Source: Xylanibacter brevis ATCC 19188 (GTDB taxonomy: Bacteria > Bacteroidota > Bacteroidia > Bacteroidales > Bacteroidaceae). Taken from it: a stretch of 64,000 nt of DNA. The notes under the pieces were generated by a model. It was not told where the DNA came from. It saw only the letters and a program-made list of their open reading frames with translations, and did no database searches. Position numbers and translations under genes: made by a program. The stretch covers positions 1 through 64,000 of the forward strand of contig NZ_JHXM01000008.1 in NCBI RefSeq assembly GCF_000621725.1, read 5' to 3'. Shown one piece after another: positions 30,896 to 56,194 of this stretch (positions are counted from its first letter, which is position 1; each line of letters starts with the position of its first letter).

Positions 30896-31552
30896 TTACC
30901 CCTCCACAAACGCCTTGATTTCTTGCTCCAAGAGGCGGAATACATTTGCAACCAGATAGCCATCTGCAATCGCATGATTCAGGCGGACTGTCACTGGCAT
31001 AACAAGCCTACCGTTTTCTTCCCTGTATTTCCCCCAGTTGACAATAGGCGCAAAATACAGATGCCCGTCAGGCAGTTCTATGTTCAGCGAATCGTACGAG
31101 AGCCATGATATGAACGATGCATCAAACCAGTTCGGGTGGTTCGCCATATCCAGTCCGTATTCCCTTGTTTTCTTTGCCTCTTCAACATCCCGCAAAGCAG
31201 AAGCATAGAACTTTTCATAGTCCTCAAAGTATTCTGTATAGACAGGTGTGCATGTTTCCGTATCTTCATGAAAAACATACTGTGTGGGATTTATCACGTC
31301 GTAGCAGATGAGTTCATCCGTCTGCCAGAGATAGCCCATTCTGTAGTCTTCACGTGAATTCATCACATTGGAGAGAATATACAGGAAGTTGATATAAAAC
31401 TTTGTCCCTGTTTTCTTGGAGTATGAAGCAAGTTCTGTTACGTCTATCCTCGCCGTTATGGAAGTAGAGCATTTACAATCTTCGGAAAAGTGACGGAAGA
31501 CACCTTTCCTATAGTATTTATCTCTGTCAATTACCTTATAGTTCGTATTCAT
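30896..31552 (-). CDS. Chloramphenicol acetyltransferase (CatA-like)
   Basis: A 218-residue protein with the type A chloramphenicol acetyltransferase plan: the N-terminal RKGVFRHFSEDCKCSTSITARID block, CTPVYTEYFEDYEKFY, WFDASFISWLSYDSLN and the catalytic His in LNHAIADGYLVA near the C terminus (canonical HHAxxDG). The first His of the canonical pair is Asn here, as in some family members. It transfers acetyl from acetyl-CoA, to chloramphenicol in the well-studied enzymes; the substrate here is not proven. The ATG at 31552 is preferred over 31579, which overlaps the upstream gene. Confidence 0.8.
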   Translation of the reverse strand: MNTNYKVIDRDKYYRKGVFRHFSEDCKCSTSITARIDVTELASYSKKTGTKFYINFLYILSNVMNSREDYRMGYLWQTDELICYDVINPTQYVFHEDTETCTPVYTEYFEDYEKFYASALRDVEEAKKTREYGLDMANHPNWFDASFISWLSYDSLNIELPDGHLYFAPIVNWGKYREENGRLVMPVTVRLNHAIADGYLVANVFRLLEQEIKAFVEG

Positions 31553-31568
31553 AATTGTAAATTCCGAT

Positions 31569-32918
31569 TTATCTATCAATTAGCGTATATTCATTCTTGG
31601 CTTCCTCATCAGTCGCTTCAGGTTCCTTTATCCAGCCACCACGATAATCAGCAATGGGCGCTATCTGCAGTGGATGACGGTCAGTAATCTCGTAAGTCAG
31701 TCCCTGCTGATGCAGCTCGTCAAGGAATGTATCAAGATAGACATCGGTCGTAAACCGCTGCATGAAACTGATGCAGAAAATGCCAGCGGCAGCACTGACT
31801 TCCACCACAATCATATAGGCAGAGTCGGTCTCTGTGCGCATCTCCTTTACATACTGTTCGGCTGCGCCCAGACGGGCCTTCCCCACATAACTGAACATAC
31901 ACGAACCGTACTGCTGACTCAGTTGGTTTGTCGGAGCAAAGGCCTGATAGCGGGCTTCAAGCGTGGGCAGCGCCTCCACTCTGTCCATTCTGCCCTGTGT
32001 CTGCCAGAAGTAGTCCAGCAGATTGTCTGGATATGTCTGCTCCTTCACCATCTTACGGAATGTGGCTACCTGCGCTTCGAAATTTTTACCTTGTATGTCT
32101 TGTCCAAACGAAAGGAACAGTCCGCCGACTTGCGAATGATGTGCCGCATCGGTTCCAAGGGTGTGCCTCAGATCTACCGCTACGGTAACGGTTGGTGCCT
32201 GAGGCGCACTCTCTGGATGCAGACGGGCGATGGCTCTTGCAAGGAGCAGAGACAGGAAAGAGGTTGGCGTGGCACCGCAGGCGCGTACACGCTTCATCAT
32301 CTGTTCCTCAGAGATACGTATCTGCACCACTTCCTTCTTATCAGCAAGGGGTACGATGGCATCGGTTGCCAGATTGATAACCTTGGGACGCTCGGGCAGT
32401 TGCTGCGGATGAATGCTCGTTGGTCTTGGTCCTGTGGCAGGATCTGTCCATTCTGTCTCGTCGATGATGTCACCTGCCACCCAGACTCCTGCAGAGTCTA
32501 ATCCACAATCGTAGCGTCTGCGGCAGTATTCATAAAGCAGTGTCCGAAGGATGCGATAGGCGGCAGTCCCGTCGATGAGCGCATGAAAAAAATCCAATGC
32601 CATGCAATCGTCCCACCACGCGAATGCCATCAGATGTTCATTGGCTTCTTCACTACACAAGCATACCGGATGACGACTGTCCGTGACTTTCCAAGGCCGT
32701 GGATTGTCGTGATAGACATAGTGCTCGCTGCCATCAGCATCGCGTACTACACCGAGTTTGACGCACAGGTAGGGGTATCTCGTCCGTGTTGCTGCAACTG
32801 CTTCTTCGAGCAGATGCCCATCCACACCATCCTTCATCTGCAGAATGATGCGCACAGTCATAGGGTACTCATCATCGGCCCTGTTCAAGTAAAAACGCTC
32901 AATATATAATCTTTTCAT
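31569..32918 (-). CDS. HxxxD-type acyltransferase (condensation/alcohol acetyltransferase-like)
   Basis: A 449-residue protein. DFFHALIDGTAAYRIL near residue 120 holds the HxxxDG active-site motif of the condensation/WES/alcohol acetyltransferase superfamily; SQVGGLFLSFGQD and GSCMFSYVGKARLG fit the later latch strands. These enzymes move acyl groups from CoA or carrier proteins to hydroxyl or amine acceptors. It starts 25 bases from the esterase lipoprotein gene upstream and is followed by the acetyltransferase-like gene, all leftward. The substrate is unknown. Confidence 0.75.
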   Translation of the reverse strand: MKRLYIERFYLNRADDEYPMTVRIILQMKDGVDGHLLEEAVAATRTRYPYLCVKLGVVRDADGSEHYVYHDNPRPWKVTDSRHPVCLCSEEANEHLMAFAWWDDCMALDFFHALIDGTAAYRILRTLLYEYCRRRYDCGLDSAGVWVAGDIIDETEWTDPATGPRPTSIHPQQLPERPKVINLATDAIVPLADKKEVVQIRISEEQMMKRVRACGATPTSFLSLLLARAIARLHPESAPQAPTVTVAVDLRHTLGTDAAHHSQVGGLFLSFGQDIQGKNFEAQVATFRKMVKEQTYPDNLLDYFWQTQGRMDRVEALPTLEARYQAFAPTNQLSQQYGSCMFSYVGKARLGAAEQYVKEMRTETDSAYMIVVEVSAAAGIFCISFMQRFTTDVYLDTFLDELHQQGLTYEITDRHPLQIAPIADYRGGWIKEPEATDEEAKNEYTLIDR

Positions 32919-47746: not shown

Positions 47747-50254
47747 TTATCGATGAAAGGCTTGATGCTTCTCTGGTTCTGCCTTTGCTTCCTTTTCAGA
47801 GGCAGCACCAGGTGTCACCAATTCTGAGATACCGCGCTTTGCCGTCTGCTTGGGAGCTTCCAACTGGTCACAGATGGCTACACGCTCTCCGGCACGGATG
47901 AGTTTTGGCAGATAAGTGTCAAGGGCATGGTAAGGGAATCCTGCCATTTTTACAGCATTACCATCAGGCCCTTTCTGCTTGGTGCTCTTAGTGAGAGTGA
48001 TACCGAGTATCTTAGAGGCTTTCTCAGCGTCTTGCTGATAAGTCTCATAGAAATCGCCTGTGCGGAACAGTAGAAGAGCGTCAGGATGCTTGCTCTTTAA
48101 GTCCAGGAACTGCTTCATAATCGGAGAAAGGACTACGGCTGCTACGGCTTTGGTCTCTGCTTTGGTGGCTTCTTCCTTGGCTTTTTCCTCCTTACGCTCT
48201 TTCTCTTTCTGCTCTGGAGAGTTACGACGCTTTTCTTCTTCCTGCTTCTTCTCAGATTGCGTCTGCTCTTCCTTCTGCTCTTCCTTTTTGTCTTCCTCTT
48301 CATGGGCTTCGACATTCTTAGTCTGCTCCTTGGTTTCAGACTGTGCTTCCTGCTCTGTCTTGTCGGTACCAACGGCTACTGCATCGGTACGTTCCTTACG
48401 GAGCACGTCGGCAAAAAGGGATGCTGCAAGATGAGTCTTGTAGTCCTGTTTGTCATCAGCCAGCCACATACGCTGCCACTGCTGTTGATTGACCTCACGG
48501 GCTTGAAGCCTGTTGCCGTCGATGGTAGGTACGCACAGAATGACACTCGGCTTGTTGTCTGTGGCTTTGGTCTTGAAGATGTTCACACGCTCGATACGTG
48601 CCAACTCCTCGGCTGTAGCCTGACTCTTGAAGAGGTCTGTCTTCAACTCAGGCTTCTCCATAGCCATAGCATAGTATCTTGAAGCCATCTCCAGACGCAT
48701 GTGGTCACTGGCTTCTTCATTGCCTTGCTTCATGGTCACGAAAAAGCGGTTGACATCTGCCTTGTCAGCATATACGGCAAAGGATGGCTCATTCTCTGGC
48801 TTCAGGAACATCGCCCACTTGCCAGCGTCATCCCTCAGCATAAGCACTTTGTCGAAAGCAACAGAGTTGGAACGGCTGACGGCTTCTGCAACATCGAGCT
48901 TGGCAAGGTCTCTCAGTTCCCAGTTGTTGAGCTTGGAAACGGAAACTTCCTTGCCAGCGAAGAAACTGTCATCAGGACGATAGCCCAATGAACCATCCAT
49001 GTTGAAGAAGGAAACGGTCTCAAAGCCTTCCTTGCGCAAGGCTTTCTCGATACGTCCTTTGTTCATGCCTGGTATTTCGTTGTCCACCTCTAAGGAAGCA
49101 CCTGCAGGGAGTACGACATCCGCTTTCTTTGCCTCGGAGTCACGTACTACGACAAATTCCTTGGTGTCTTTGTTGGGCAGGTTCTTCAGCTCATCAGCGA
49201 CATAGTAGTGCTTGGGCTGTTCTGCCTGAGTTCCCTCTTTTTGCTGTGGGGATGCCAACTCAACCTTCTCACCACGCTCTGCCTTGTGAAGCATATCCAG
49301 AGCATTGTTGACATCCATCTCCACGACATCAATGAGACAGGGATTCTCTTTGAGTTCTCGCTGCCAGTAGTCAACCATTTTCATGCTTTCAGCAGAGAGC
49401 TTGGCAGGAAGTCCCAATTCAAGCATCTTACTGCCAGCTGCCAACTCGACAATAAGGCGTTCCTGCTTTGCTGCATCTTCAGGAGAGGTGTTTCCGTTGT
49501 TCATGCCGTTACGTCCCAGACGCTGTGCATTGCCTGTGGCACTTACCACCTGACGCATGAGTTCGTTGGTGAAGTCCTTGTAAGACTCGAAATCCTTCTC
49601 ACTGGGCATATACACCGTATCTTTCTTGGAATCGTAATGGGCAACACCGCTGCCATCAAGACGGATGGGAACAAGGTTGTCGCGTGTCTTCAGGATGAAG
49701 TCATTGACTGAAATACGCAGGTGGTCACTCTCAGATTTGGAGTGCTCACGATCCTCAGAGGTTCCATGTGCCTTGACTTCCTGCTCATAGCGTTCCTTGT
49801 CAACGAAAGGAAGGGTTGTCTGGTCAATATTGAACAGAGCACGGACTTCACGGGTTCTGACTCCCTTGTATTCTGCCTGTTGCTTTTCGTCCAAAGCCTT
49901 GTAGTCTTCACGGCTGATGACATCTTCAGGATTATGCCTGTTGACATATTCCTTCCAGTTGTACCAGTTGAAGGGAACTCCCTTTTCCTTGGACTGTACT
50001 GACTCGCCGCGTTTCTTGGCTTCGCTGAAAAGCGTGTACTCGTTGGTCTTGTAGTTGTTCTGGTCACTGTGAAGTGCCATTGTCATGGCATTGAAGGCTG
50101 AGACATTGACACCTCGTGGATAGAAACGTGGTGCCGTCTTCTCTGATGGGTTCAACCATACACCGCCATTCTCCTTGGCTCTTTCCATTGCATTGATGAG
50201 AAGTTCAGCCTGTTTTTCGGCTGCTGCTTTCTCCTGTGGGTTCTTTTCCTGCAT
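47747..50254 (-). CDS. Protease-dead ArdC-like protein fused to a MutS domain I
   Basis: An 835-residue polyvalent-type protein. Residues 40-300 follow ArdC ([30 protein letters not shown]), but where the zincin needs HExxH it has NELMR at 230-234, so it is probably inactive. A DUF3945-like middle and a long Glu/Lys/Gln region (about 620-700) lead to a C-terminal MutS domain I, from about 705 ([29 protein letters not shown] with the Phe-x-Glu mismatch-reading motif, [23 protein letters not shown]). It ends in FHR. Binding and protection of incoming DNA is inferred. Confidence 0.8.
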
Positions 50255-51724: not shown

Positions 51725-52366
51725 TTAGTTATGGGGTAGATTACCCGATATTCTCATCAGCTGCTCAAACATGTCATGGTCGATTTGTCCTTGACGATAG
51801 GCATTGTGAATGTAGGCAAGAGTACGTCCATAGGAACCTTCACGTCCTGACCCGAAATGATCATAGATGTCCATCAGGTGATTGGCGACTGTCATATTCG
51901 TTTCTGGAGGGAAAGTTATCCAGTTTCCAGTTTTGTCATGGAAGGATGGTATTTCCGTGTTGATGCCAGTCTGTGAGATTCCTCCTTGGTCAGAGGCAAG
52001 GAAACCGTCTGAAGTTCCACTACCTGTAGATGAACTGCTGCTTCCTTCTGTGGAAGAACCACTGCCATCAACTCCGAAGAACTGAGGTAAGGCGGTAGCC
52101 ATCAACACGAAGCACATACAGCTGCCTACAGTCATCATCATCCTCTTCCTGATTTGGTTAGGATTGGTCTGCATACTCAGATAGATGCTCATGGCACCTG
52201 CAACGGCTATCACGGCAGCTATCACATAACACACTCCCTGAACATAAGGAAGGTAAGAACCTACGCCGTCAGCAGCATCGCTCAAACCAGACAAGCCACT
52301 GTCTGCGAATGAGGACACTGCCATAGGCGTAACGAAAATTATGGAAAACAATCTTTTTGTTATCAT
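51725..52366 (-). CDS. DUF4134-like (TraE/VirB2-type) pilin-like membrane protein
   Basis: A 213-residue protein from the ATG at 52366. The first 110 residues have a signal-like start (RLFSIIFVTPMAVSSFA), a short amphipathic segment and two hydrophobic helices separated by NPNQIRKR, the plan of DUF4134 proteins, which are VirB2-pilin-like in Bacteroidales conjugative elements. An unusual Ser/Gly/Thr-rich linker (GSGSSTEGSSSSSTGSG) leads to an extra 90-residue C-terminal domain. The ATG overlaps the stop of the upstream frame as ATGA. Confidence 0.7.
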   Translation of the reverse strand: MITKRLFSIIFVTPMAVSSFADSGLSGLSDAADGVGSYLPYVQGVCYVIAAVIAVAGAMSIYLSMQTNPNQIRKRMMMTVGSCMCFVLMATALPQFFGVDGSGSSTEGSSSSSTGSGTSDGFLASDQGGISQTGINTEIPSFHDKTGNWITFPPETNMTVANHLMDIYDHFGSGREGSYGRTLAYIHNAYRQGQIDHDMFEQLMRISGNLPHN

Positions 52367-52686
52367 AAGTTCAATTGGTTTAATATCTGTTCTTTTGTCT
52401 GTTCGATGGCGTGATGATAGACTTCCATCTGTTTTGGAAAGTATTCCTCTAACCATTCGTCCTTATCTACATTGTCATTGATGAACTTGATTGCCAGCAT
52501 ACGGTCAATCTCTATGGCTGCTTCTCCAGCCTCGCTGTTGTTGAACCATGCCTTTGTCCACCATCGGATTCCGCTTTTGTCTGGATAGACACTCACAAGT
52601 CTTGGTATATCGAAGCTCTGCACGTCAATCTCCAGCTCTGCCAGCGGATCAATGAGTCCGCTACTGGCTACGGCTCTGTCTTCAGC
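52363..52686 (-). CDS. Downstream frame reached by candidate -1 frameshift (107-residue extension)
   Basis: This frame is open from directly after the A10 run (52687-52696) to a TGA at 52363. It has only a weak independent start (GTG at 52623, without a Shine-Dalgarno-like sequence). A -1 slip on A AAA AAG in the M23-like gene would add 107 residues containing GLIDPLAELEIDVQSFDIPR and WWTKAWFNN, giving a protein of about 378 residues. Its stop overlaps the pilin-like ATG as ATGA. If there is no slippage, residues from about 52623 would be an independent small gene. Confidence 0.6.
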   Translation of the reverse strand, partial: AEDRAVASSGLIDPLAELEIDVQSFDIPRLVSVYPDKSGIRWWTKAWFNNSEAGEAAIEIDRMLAIKFINDNVDKDEWLEEYFPKQMEVYHHAIEQTKEQILNQLNL

Positions 52687-53498
52687 TTTTTTTTTTCGAG
52701 TGCGGACATCGTACTGAGAAAGACATGATGCCTCAATGCCAGATAATTGAGGAAATCAGCTATCAGCAGGTTCTGCACTTTCTCAGCCAATGGTATGCTC
52801 CTGGCACCCATACCCAAAGGATTTGCCATGCTGGGCAGGGTCTCATAGAAGTAGTTCTTCATCGCTGACATCGTGAAGATGTTGCGAAGCGCAAGTTCCG
52901 TATGCTCAGGAATGGAGTACAGGCCATTGCTCATGTCACTCATGTAATCCGGGAAGAAGCGCATCATCAGCTCTTCAATCTCCTTCTGGTCTTTGTCGTA
53001 CATGGTATGCACGTCCATGTCGATGGTGACGAACTGAGGCACGGCACCTACCTGACCTTGCTGTTCCATTGTTTTGAGGTTGCCGTAAATCATGGTGAGA
53101 AATTCCAACGGGTTCATTTCCTCGCCATTGTACTTAACTTCCATGTGGAGCATGTCGGCACTCACAGCGACCACCTGACCTGCCTTTACTACCTGTCCGT
53201 AGTTGGCAAAGACATTGCTCAGATGGGAATAGGTCACTTCATAGTTGCCGTAGCGGATGACCTGATAGATGCAGTGAATGGCATCATTTCCCAATCCCGA
53301 CACCTTACCTGTAGCAACAGCAGAAAGCAGGTAATGCTTAACATCGAAGTCAATCCCATGATGGAAGAATTTCTCTCCTGTCTTAGGGTGCTTCTGCTTG
53401 CCGTAGCCGAGCGACATCTCTACATCTTTGTTCTTCTCCTCAAACGGCATACAGTAGCCGCTGTCTGACTGGAGTATCATTTCATGTGTAAACTGCAT
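52668..53498 (-). CDS. M23-like protein with incomplete zinc site
   Basis: A 276-residue protein from the ATG at 53498 (MQFTHEMILQ). It is M23-like: FFHHGIDFDV supplies the first His and Asp, and GQVVAVSADMLHMEV occupies the place of GxHLHFEV, but the first His of HxH is Met, so it may be catalytically dead and serve to bind peptidoglycan. The C-terminal 110 residues are helical. The last codons (LEKKKLKTEP) cross an A10 run, the possible site of frameshifting. No signal peptide. Confidence 0.75.
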   Translation of the reverse strand: MQFTHEMILQSDSGYCMPFEEKNKDVEMSLGYGKQKHPKTGEKFFHHGIDFDVKHYLLSAVATGKVSGLGNDAIHCIYQVIRYGNYEVTYSHLSNVFANYGQVVKAGQVVAVSADMLHMEVKYNGEEMNPLEFLTMIYGNLKTMEQQGQVGAVPQFVTIDMDVHTMYDKDQKEIEELMMRFFPDYMSDMSNGLYSIPEHTELALRNIFTMSAMKNYFYETLPSMANPLGMGARSIPLAEKVQNLLIADFLNYLALRHHVFLSTMSALEKKKLKTEP

Positions 53499-53526: not shown

Positions 53527-54231
53527 TTATCTGCCCCTGTGAATCTGTTCCCTTGGCGGTTCATCCACCTGAACGACCTGTGCCTGTGGCTTCGGCAGCT
53601 CCCTCTGTGGTGTTTCCTGTGCCAAAGGCTTCTGCTGTCCACCTCCCAGCACCTGACTCATATTGGCATTGTTGCCAATCATCATCATGCCAAGGACTGC
53701 TCCGGCTATCTTTCCGAGCCATCCGAAACGTCCGAAAACAAGCAAGGCTGAAAGTACCAGTCCTGCAAGGCTGAGACCTGACACATTGCCTTTGCCAAGG
53801 TTGCTGAAGAAGTTACTGAACATATCGCCTCCGTTGCCAGAGAACACACCACGAAGGAAGTTTGACATGCCGCTCCACTTGCTATCCACACTGGTCATGG
53901 CATTGTTCATGGTATCGACAGCACCGCCAACGGAATCCTTCAGCTCAGTTACGGTATTGGCTACGCCATCAACCTTGTCACTGACCGTATCAATGGTATC
54001 TGAGCCTACGACAGCATCGCCAACAATACGAGCGACACTCTTATCCGTGGTCAGCTTTTCCCAACCGACGTATGCGGCAGCACCGCCGACAGCAGCGGTC
54101 TTGGTGGCTGTGCCGAGTCCCTTGATGGTTCTCTGAGGATGGATGACAGCACTGCCAACGGATGAAGCCGTTGCCTTGGCTGCACGGCCACCGTACTTAA
54201 ATGTTGCTTTGAGTAATGAACTCCAACTCAT
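53527..54231 (-). CDS. Hypothetical membrane protein
   Basis: A 234-residue protein with a glycine/alanine-rich start, a helical middle (TIDTVSDKVDGVANTVTEL) and two hydrophobic helices near 150-200 (LSLAGLVLSALLVF, GKIAGAVLGMMMIG). The C terminus is Pro/Gln-rich and ends EPPREQIHRGR. Transfer-region context only. Confidence 0.6.
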   Translation of the reverse strand: MSWSSLLKATFKYGGRAAKATASSVGSAVIHPQRTIKGLGTATKTAAVGGAAAYVGWEKLTTDKSVARIVGDAVVGSDTIDTVSDKVDGVANTVTELKDSVGGAVDTMNNAMTSVDSKWSGMSNFLRGVFSGNGGDMFSNFFSNLGKGNVSGLSLAGLVLSALLVFGRFGWLGKIAGAVLGMMMIGNNANMSQVLGGGQQKPLAQETPQRELPKPQAQVVQVDEPPREQIHRGR

Positions 54232-54260: not shown

Positions 54261-54959
54261 TTATCTTCTCCCATTTCGCCTCCAGCGTTCCATACATTGC
54301 CTTGTGATACTGGCTTTGTCCGCTTCACTCCTGGCACTGTAATCAATCTCTGCCCACACGTCAGCAAGGGATGTATATTTCACCGCCTTGATAAGACGCT
54401 GGAGTTTCTTGTTCATGAGTTTGAGCTTGGGACGGATGCCAAAGATGATCTCCAGACGTTCCTTCTCAGTCATCTTGGTATTGGCGAGACAGACCTGACG
54501 GATGTCATTGACAATATCCACGCTTCCCATGATAATCTCCCGATAGATTTTGTTACGATTAGCGGAAAGTGCCACTGCAAGGGCATTAGTGGGATGAGCA
54601 CTTAACTGATGGCTGAAACTTCCAAGGTTGTCAACCATCCTGTCAATCTCATGGTAGAAGCCGTATATCTGTGCTGCATAGGCTATGATGCTGTGAAAGT
54701 CATCAAGGTATTTGTTGAACTCCTTCTGAAGGTCTGTGGTAGCATTGACCTCCTCGGTAATCCAGATATGGCCTGTTGCCTCCAGCAGCATCATCTTTTC
54801 CTGTTGCTTCAGCTCTTTCTTGGCTTTGTCCGTATAGAGCGCAATCATTCCTGCCAGCACAGGGTCATTGCCCTGAGCATGGAGCATACTCCCACCAACT
54901 CCCCCGAAGGGGAGGGCGAGAGTCAGCATGATTATGACAAAGAAAGATTTATTCAACAT
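54261..54959 (-). CDS. Exported helical transfer-region protein, paralogue 1
   Basis: A 232-residue protein with a signal peptide (FFVIIMLTLALPFGGVGGSMLHA, cleavage near residue 29) and a mature helical domain. It resembles the next upstream gene product: both end with K-L-x-x-L then Y-T-x-x-DVW and a basic tail with RRW or RWRR. The two are probably tandem duplicates in the periplasm. VirB5-like pilus tip proteins are exported helical proteins too, but I see no decisive similarity. Confidence 0.7.
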   Translation of the reverse strand: MLNKSFFVIIMLTLALPFGGVGGSMLHAQGNDPVLAGMIALYTDKAKKELKQQEKMMLLEATGHIWITEEVNATTDLQKEFNKYLDDFHSIIAYAAQIYGFYHEIDRMVDNLGSFSHQLSAHPTNALAVALSANRNKIYREIIMGSVDIVNDIRQVCLANTKMTEKERLEIIFGIRPKLKLMNKKLQRLIKAVKYTSLADVWAEIDYSARSEADKASITRQCMERWRRNGRR

Positions 54960-54972
54960 GATTCATTCCGTT

Positions 54973-55722
54973 TTAGTATGCAGCTCTGGCACATCTTATC
55001 CATCGTCTGTGGGCCTGTAGTGCTATTTCCCCATTGGTACGGTCAAGCATTCCGGCGGTTACACTGTTCCATACATCAGTCATGGTGTAGTAGCGGATGG
55101 ATAGATAGAGCTTGGTGAGTTTCTTATTGAAAGCATCGAGCCTGTCATTGAGTGCCCAAAGGGTCTTGCTTCTCTCTGCTCCAGTAAGCATATTCTCTGT
55201 ACCTCCCTTGGCAATGGCATCCCTCAATGTTGTGTAGATGGTCACAAGTTCCGTGGCCGTCTCTATGTAGAGGTTGTTCATCGACATGGTGGCAACGATA
55301 CCTTGCGGATTGTCGGCCATCGCTTTTCTCAGGTTGCAGAGATTGATGAAGATGCGTACACCGTCATCATATAGTGTGGTACAGGCTTTCAATGTACTGG
55401 CATAGCCGTCCACCGTCTTCAGATAGGAGTTGTACTTCTTTTCCCACTTGTGAATCATCGTAAACTCGGCTGCAATGCCGTTCTGAAGCAGTGCGGTCTT
55501 CTGCTGGTCATCAATCTGGGTCTTGATCTGACCATTGATGAGTTCATTGCCTTCTGCCAGTGCCACATATTCCAAAGGATTGCTTGAAGTTATCTGGGCA
55601 TGGGCTTTCCCGAAACTCAACCACAAAAGGACAAATGCCATGAATGCGACTGTCCACCACCGTTGGTCAAAATGCCATCGGTCTTTGTTCATAGGATAGA
55701 TGTTACCGATTGGTGATTTCAT
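54973..55722 (-). CDS. Exported helical transfer-region protein, paralogue 2
   Basis: A 249-residue protein; starts at 55722 or 55692 are both plausible. A hydrophobic run (WWTVAFMAFVLLWLSFGKAHA) is the signal peptide, with the mature helical part after it. KKLTKLYLSIRYYTMTDVWNS near the end matches the paralogue downstream. Its start overlaps the PH-domain gene by about 20 bases when read from 55722. Confidence 0.7.
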   Translation of the reverse strand: MKSPIGNIYPMNKDRWHFDQRWWTVAFMAFVLLWLSFGKAHAQITSSNPLEYVALAEGNELINGQIKTQIDDQQKTALLQNGIAAEFTMIHKWEKKYNSYLKTVDGYASTLKACTTLYDDGVRIFINLCNLRKAMADNPQGIVATMSMNNLYIETATELVTIYTTLRDAIAKGGTENMLTGAERSKTLWALNDRLDAFNKKLTKLYLSIRYYTMTDVWNSVTAGMLDRTNGEIALQAHRRWIRCARAAY

Positions 55723-56194
55723 AAATGCCTTTTCTGCGTTTATTGTATTCAACTCTTTCTCTGATGATAGCCACCACATCGAGCTTTTCTTTCACTCCGT
55801 AAATGTCGAGCTTTGGATTGGTTCTGTCGCCGCTGTAGATGCTGACGGTCTTTAGTCCGAACAACTGTTCCAGTATATCCCTGCTCTCGCTGAAGTCCAC
55901 GATGCGGTAAAGCTCAATGTAGTCGCTTGTCCTATGGAAGATGCCATGCTGGATGATAAGCTGCTCAGAGGAAACAATGAACCTAAGCTTGCACAGATAC
56001 AGACAGCCGTAAAGCATCATAAGGGTTGTGATGGTACCAAGTATCAGGAATGGTGCCTTGAAGGTGATGGCTTCATGTCCGGCAACAAGGAACAGTACCA
56101 TACTGACAAGGAACATCAATCCCTGACTGATGATATACTGCGCCCAATGTGGGCGAAGCGTGATGATGTTGAAGCGTCTGATTACCTGTTCCAT
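55703..56194 (-). CDS. Bacterial PH domain (bPH2/YdbS-like) membrane protein
   Basis: A 163-residue protein. Two membrane helices at about 20-65 (YIISQGLMFLVSMVLFLVAG and FLILGTITTLMMLYGCLYL) are followed by the bPH2 block LIIQHGIFHRTSDYIELYRIVDF, then SIYSGDRTNPKLDIYGV. Members are small membrane proteins with a cytoplasmic PH-like fold whose role is not settled. It is two bases upstream of the Toprim gene stop. Confidence 0.75.
   Translation of the reverse strand: MEQVIRRFNIITLRPHWAQYIISQGLMFLVSMVLFLVAGHEAITFKAPFLILGTITTLMMLYGCLYLCKLRFIVSSEQLIIQHGIFHRTSDYIELYRIVDFSESRDILEQLFGLKTVSIYSGDRTNPKLDIYGVKEKLDVVAIIRERVEYNKRRKGIYEITNR

Follow-up and report, generated by a model that had tools for sequence, protein, structure and literature searches.

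A conserved A-run in an M23-like gene of Bacteroidales mobile elements is a candidate slippage site for making two proteins from one gene

The 64 kb window analyzed here, meaning the whole stretch of DNA and not the feature under study, comes from Xylanibacter brevis ATCC 19188 and contains an M23-like gene that ends just past a run of ten As, with a second open frame behind the run. The features at this junction are as follows.

52668–53498, minus strand: M23-like gene, 0-frame (short) product of 276 aa; open reading frame with a Pfam Peptidase_M23 match
52687–52696, minus strand: A10 run, putative slip site; each of the 81 distinct junctions from homologues has 8 to 11 As here
52686–52692, minus strand: A AAA AAG heptamer, in phase, inside and after the A10 run
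52363–52686, minus strand: −1 frame extension, 107 codons (52366–52686) plus TGA (52363–52365); open, conserved frame with dN far below dS
52640–52668, minus strand: inverted repeat noted in a sequence-only reading of the window; present, unconserved, without excess folding and probably not functional
51725–52366, minus strand: DUF4134 gene (Pfam PF13572, E 3.1e-20), its ATG overlapping the extension stop
53527–54231, minus strand: gene for 234 aa, upstream within the same block; matched by tblastn at 74 of the 81 junction loci

On the minus strand the junction reads CTC GAA AAA AAA AAG CTG AAG ACA GAG CCG TAG, the A10 run being T10 on the plus strand. The 0-frame of the M23-like gene closes at the TAG at 52670–52668, and the extension TGA at 52365–52363 overlaps the ATG (52366–52364) of the DUF4134 gene. 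The sequence-only reading had described the gene end, the A10 run, the in-phase heptamer, the 107-codon −1 frame and this stop–start overlap, and all of them were confirmed in the sequence. Nowhere else in the window do nine or more As or Ts follow one another; 518 kb of other loci, junctions excluded, hold two A/T runs of nine and none longer. Selection against A/T runs appears at nine in many bacterial genomes, as stated in the available text of PMC1088944. The window's genome contains 56 exact A9 tracts (both strands, regardless of coding status), so avoidance of A9 is at most a possibility in this host.

Homologues were drawn from genome contigs (14 loci), from genome samples of the genus, family and order, and from plasmids (six records, five used), IMG/VR (3 loci) and phage records (6). 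A profile of the extension matched 33 of 399 genomes in the family sample, 38 of 398 in the genus sample and 3 of 393 in the order sample, the last three being the window's own genome, a second genome from its genus and, within a 2067-aa open frame, a match that is weak and partial (E 1.8e-4). In a search of 200 genomes, all 19 M23 matches at E ≤2.9e-71 carry the extension. Among 136 loci it is found in 122 and absent from 14, namely L033–L045, which are other M23 proteins, and L081. The 122 loci reduce to 81 distinct junction sequences, some closely related; 48 junction loci at <85% identity over 100 bases formed the set for folding and SD tests.

The extension lies in the −1 frame in 72 of these 81 junctions (A9 in 47, A10 in 25), in frame in four (three A10, one A11) and in the +1 frame in five (three A9, two A8). 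All six phage-record junctions are −1 with A9, three of them duplicating earlier ones. The −1 junctions span isolates, MAGs and plasmids recorded as complete; they differ in codon register and in the position of the 0-frame stop, whose distance from the run is 10–44 bases with a median of 16. A programmed −1 frame change joining the M23-like protein to the extension, as the sequence-only reading had proposed, is supported by its retention in 72 of 81 distinct junctions. The accompanying question of whether homologues always split the two frames at an A-run received a mixed answer: four join them, and none does so without the run. Six junctions depart from their relatives by a single A, five with one fewer and the +1 frame (L012, L079, L080, L093 and L095) and one with one more (L133, A11, in frame); these may be sequencing errors or real tract drift, and as exceptions they weigh against the frameshift reading.

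Purifying selection acts on both the M23 part and the extension. Compared with the window copy, extensions gave dN/dS values of 0.02–0.10 in the four of 16 comparisons with computable dS, synonymous sites being saturated in the remaining 12 (dN 0.07–0.68), and an alignment of 19 diverse extensions has 16 invariant columns. The first conserved motif of the extension is DP in 80 of 81 junctions and DL in the other; between the run and DP lie 12 codons in 71 of the 80, and in the nine of register 0 the distance is 11 codons plus 2 bases. The extension found no match in Pfam, NCBIfam or PHROGs, its profile gave only chance-level matches against the PDB (best E 0.35), and AlphaFold2 models were too poor for use (pLDDT 53.6 for the extension, 35.4 for the M23 part). 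The M23 part itself scores 35.7 bits against a Peptidase_M23 cut-off of 28.7. The first His of the HxH motif is catalytic in LytM. That position is never His in the 79 readable of 81 M23-like proteins, which suggests a binding or structural role, or an altered activity; with this residue missing in 79 of 79 readable homologues, the M23-like protein may not be an active peptidase.

Three relatives (L023, L024 and L110) form one clade in which the extension is fused in frame and A10 is retained. A −1 slip in these genes meets a stop after 3, 2 and 6 codons, respectively, and a +1 slip after 12 to 15 codons. In this clade the default is reversed, the long form being unslipped and the short one expected on slippage, and the run is kept. 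Had the long form alone mattered, fused genes would be expected to have spread, yet the set holds just the three of this clade and a single A11 junction; both the short and the long form therefore seem to be needed.

The sequence around the run follows a narrow pattern. At least nine As are present in 72 of 72 −1 junctions, whichever codon register they occupy. Both lysines are encoded by AAA in all 80 tree rows, against an AAG usage of 59% in the same genes. The codon ahead of the lysines was counted in the 75 tree rows that are not +1: where it encodes V, E, Q, L or I, its last base is A in 67 of 67 rows, and the A-ending form persists over at least 12 residue changes on the tree (A-ending usage in the same genes is 18% for V, 45% for E, 23% for Q, 7% for L and 26% for I). 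The other eight rows have an S, D or G codon ending in T, followed by AAA as the third codon; there are three independent register changes to xxT, each paired with a third codon AAA (sign test p 0.25). The third 0-frame residue is N, K or once S, and the fourth is of eight kinds. The single S (AGC, in L136) comes with two As before the lysines, and the run is still nine. This codon pattern reads as a run-length rule. Any nine-A run also holds an in-phase A AAA AAA, so the length pattern largely fits a ribosomal slip too, and lysine constraint in the long protein may add to it.

We consider it probable that the junction is a programmed site for making two proteins from one gene, with RNA polymerase as the most likely agent of the slip. 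In this mechanism, unslipped expression would yield the 276-aa M23-like protein, and slippage would join the M23-like part to the ~107-aa conserved domain, some of the mRNAs receiving a changed number of As from RNA polymerase. How much long product is made relative to short would probably determine the composition of a transfer-machine part associated with the envelope or peptidoglycan. The broader proposal, a family-wide transcriptional-slippage switch in the transfer region of these elements that would set the ratio of two M23 forms lacking a catalytic residue, with the default inverted and the switch kept in the fused clade, seems to us evenly poised between right and wrong. Polymerase is favored over ribosome, short of proof, because at least nine As are kept, the preceding codons end in A, structure is lacking and a tRNA-Lys(CUU) is present; we weigh the two agents at about two to one.

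If ribosomes shifted by −1 at A AAA AAG or A AAA AAA, a uniform mRNA would yield the same two proteins; such programmed frameshifting is a possible, if less likely, account. All 72 −1 junctions contain A AAA AAA or A AAA AAG/AAC in phase, and the −1 extension is under coding selection behind an in-phase X XXY YYZ heptamer. In the available text of PMC4066793, 61% of heptamers shift somewhat without stimulators, and few E. coli motifs are as efficient as A AAA AAG. The host also carries a tRNA-Lys with the UUU anticodon. A ribosomal slip would need only seven bases, yet at least nine As are kept; moreover, the third codon in −1 junctions is often AAC (38 of 72) or AAA (8 of 72), both of which slip far less readily in E. 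coli than AAG does (PMC5009743, as available).

RNA structure and other stimulators, which usually but not necessarily accompany −1 ribosomal frameshifting, bear on the same choice. The sequence-only reading had likened the site to E. coli dnaX, with a hairpin behind the heptamer. The hairpin arms are present (GCCA at 52668–52665 and GCGGA at 52661–52657, facing TCCGC at 52648–52644 and TGGC at 52643–52640), but the 60 bases containing them fold no better than shuffles (z −0.31 in the window), and the arms are altered in relatives, for example L005 and L017. A conserved hairpin at the junction was accordingly rejected. Across the 48 loci, downstream pseudoknot-free folding showed no excess at three window sizes (mean z +0.14, +0.15 and −0.16); controls gave z of −0.56 to 0.00, and three of the 48 loci fell below −2 at the middle size. 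SD-like motifs were barely above control, in 14 of 48 loci versus 20% of 768 control windows. The genome encodes two tRNA-Lys genes with CUU and two with UUU, rather than the single UUU that applies to E. coli dnaX. Given no excess structure, a tRNA-Lys(CUU) and at least nine retained As, the dnaX-like ribosomal slip with a hairpin is unsupported or unproven.

Known systems offer partial parallels. E. coli dnaX undergoes a −1 ribosomal frameshift at A AAA AAG, and a single tRNA-Lys reads both lysine codons in that species, according to the available text of PMC5009743. The window shares the in-phase A AAA AAG; unlike dnaX, the M23 junctions have no conserved stimulators, their host has a tRNA-Lys(CUU), and it is the run rather than the heptamer that is kept. 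In Thermus thermophilus dnaX, an A9 run lies in a single ORF and the short form arises when the polymerase slips (PMC1088944 and PMC5009743, as available). The fused clade resembles this arrangement in its in-frame long ORF, its A10 run and its early stops in both other frames, whereas most M23-extension genes are arranged in reverse and the protein is unrelated. Shigella spa13, in a type III secretion operon, gains a 112-aa extension by transcriptional slippage (PMC5009743, same text); the slip-made C-terminal extension is of similar size (107 codons in the window), and its end overlaps the start of the next gene as in the window, an overlap that is not general in the M23 family. The spa13 protein and secretion system are different, and slippage, ratio and function were measured for spa13, whereas for the M23 gene we infer them. 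The literature searched, part of it as partial text, gave no report of the M23-extension gene, although the supplementary cluster lists of PMC3711429 may hold an automatic listing; nor did it yield programmed slippage in a conjugation operon.

It is improbable that the extension is a separate protein, made by re-initiation or from a non-standard start near the M23 stop. Four annotated public records do give the M23 part and the extension as two proteins, the separate one of ~94 aa, and 17 of 80 junctions have an in-frame ATG, GTG or TTG before DP. The other 63 have none, and an independent start was rejected on that count. The claim of the sequence-only reading that the extension has no good start of its own stands for the window, where the sole listed start in its frame is a GTG at 52623, downstream of DP; those 17 junctions have a possible start. 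A separate protein would also leave the A-run and the near-constant run-to-DP spacing unexplained, and three relatives are fused. Less probable again is DNA phase variation, in which slipped-strand replication would change the tract length and turn the long form on or off between cells: the six of 81 junctions that are one A off from relatives would fit it, but 72 of 81 share the same −1 state through the tree rather than being mixed, and outside the fused clade the odd junctions are single tips (L133, being too short, is not in the tree). Homopolymer sequencing or assembly error, which the sequence-only reading had held to be the main alternative, and gene decay are rejected for the family and very nearly without standing, because 72 of 81 distinct sequences share the offset, with differing registers and with stops at distances of 10 to 44 bases from it, and both parts are under purifying selection; errors of this kind do arise at A10, and some of the six odd junctions may be due to them.

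Also present in the surrounding block are Toprim, PH-domain, ArdC, glucosaminidase-M23, SSB-like, MobV and OmpA genes. Eighteen of 21 window proteins compared, a set that includes the M23 gene and the extension, match a Parabacteroides plasmid record in largely the same order. On the complete Prevotella plasmid pE2-28, the M23 gene and extension share a strand and follow, at a distance of three genes, the traN of a CTnDOT-like operon that also has traK, traM, DUF4133 and DUF4134. The position next to such an operon is the likeness to CTnDOT-like Bacteroidota transfer operons; the differences are that the M23-extension gene bears no Tra name in annotations and that its window neighbors are MobV, OmpA, ArdC and Toprim genes. 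From its position, the gene appears to be part of the DNA-transfer region in mobile elements of Bacteroidales and may have a role in transfer. All six plasmid records are classed as non-mobilizable in PLSDB, which counts against such a role. The suggestion that slippage could also set translation of the pilin-like DUF4134 gene did not prove general: a relative of that gene lies behind at least 15 of 81 junctions (a lower bound, as flanks are short), and general coupling was rejected.

Several other features of these elements were recorded. The plasmid records L047 and L050, from Parabacteroides distasonis and Bacteroides finegoldii, have an identical junction and extension, by recent transfer or because one sample set was assembled together; the score of a Phocaeicola massiliensis record (H4) equals theirs. 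An 835-aa protein at 47747–50254 (minus strand) combines an ArdC-like N-terminal domain, a zincin domain and MutS domain I (E 3.6e-34), and L047 has a relative of it at the same place. The 232-aa and 268-aa neighbors at 54261–54959 and 54973–55779 (minus strand) look like distant paralogues, and the 268-aa protein also matches the place of the 232-aa gene in L047 at 23% identity. A chloramphenicol acetyltransferase family gene (Pfam CAT, E 4.2e-45) lies at 30896–31579 (minus strand), ~21 kb from the junction.

Phage tail-chaperone recoding, as in gpG/gpGT, was considered and rejected: ten proteins compared with PHROGs gave no tail chaperone, their matches being of M23 and glucosaminidase type (endolysins and a tape-measure family). 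The gene is also present in three IMG/VR contigs (L128–L130) and six unverified 'Bacteriophage sp.' scaffolds (L184–L189), and tail genes also occur in one plasmid record. The contigs and scaffolds may be mobile elements filed as viral, and the M23-extension gene may have a phage link.

If the preferred reading of slippage, most likely by RNA polymerase, is correct, a gene publicly recorded as two would be one recoded gene with two products, probably part of a transfer machinery, on gut mobile elements that are widespread. Split and fused relatives with the same run would form a natural experiment on the need for two forms, and an exact run-length rule makes the choice between polymerase and ribosome directly testable. 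Other A-tract junctions in Bacteroidota may likewise be annotated as errors or split genes.
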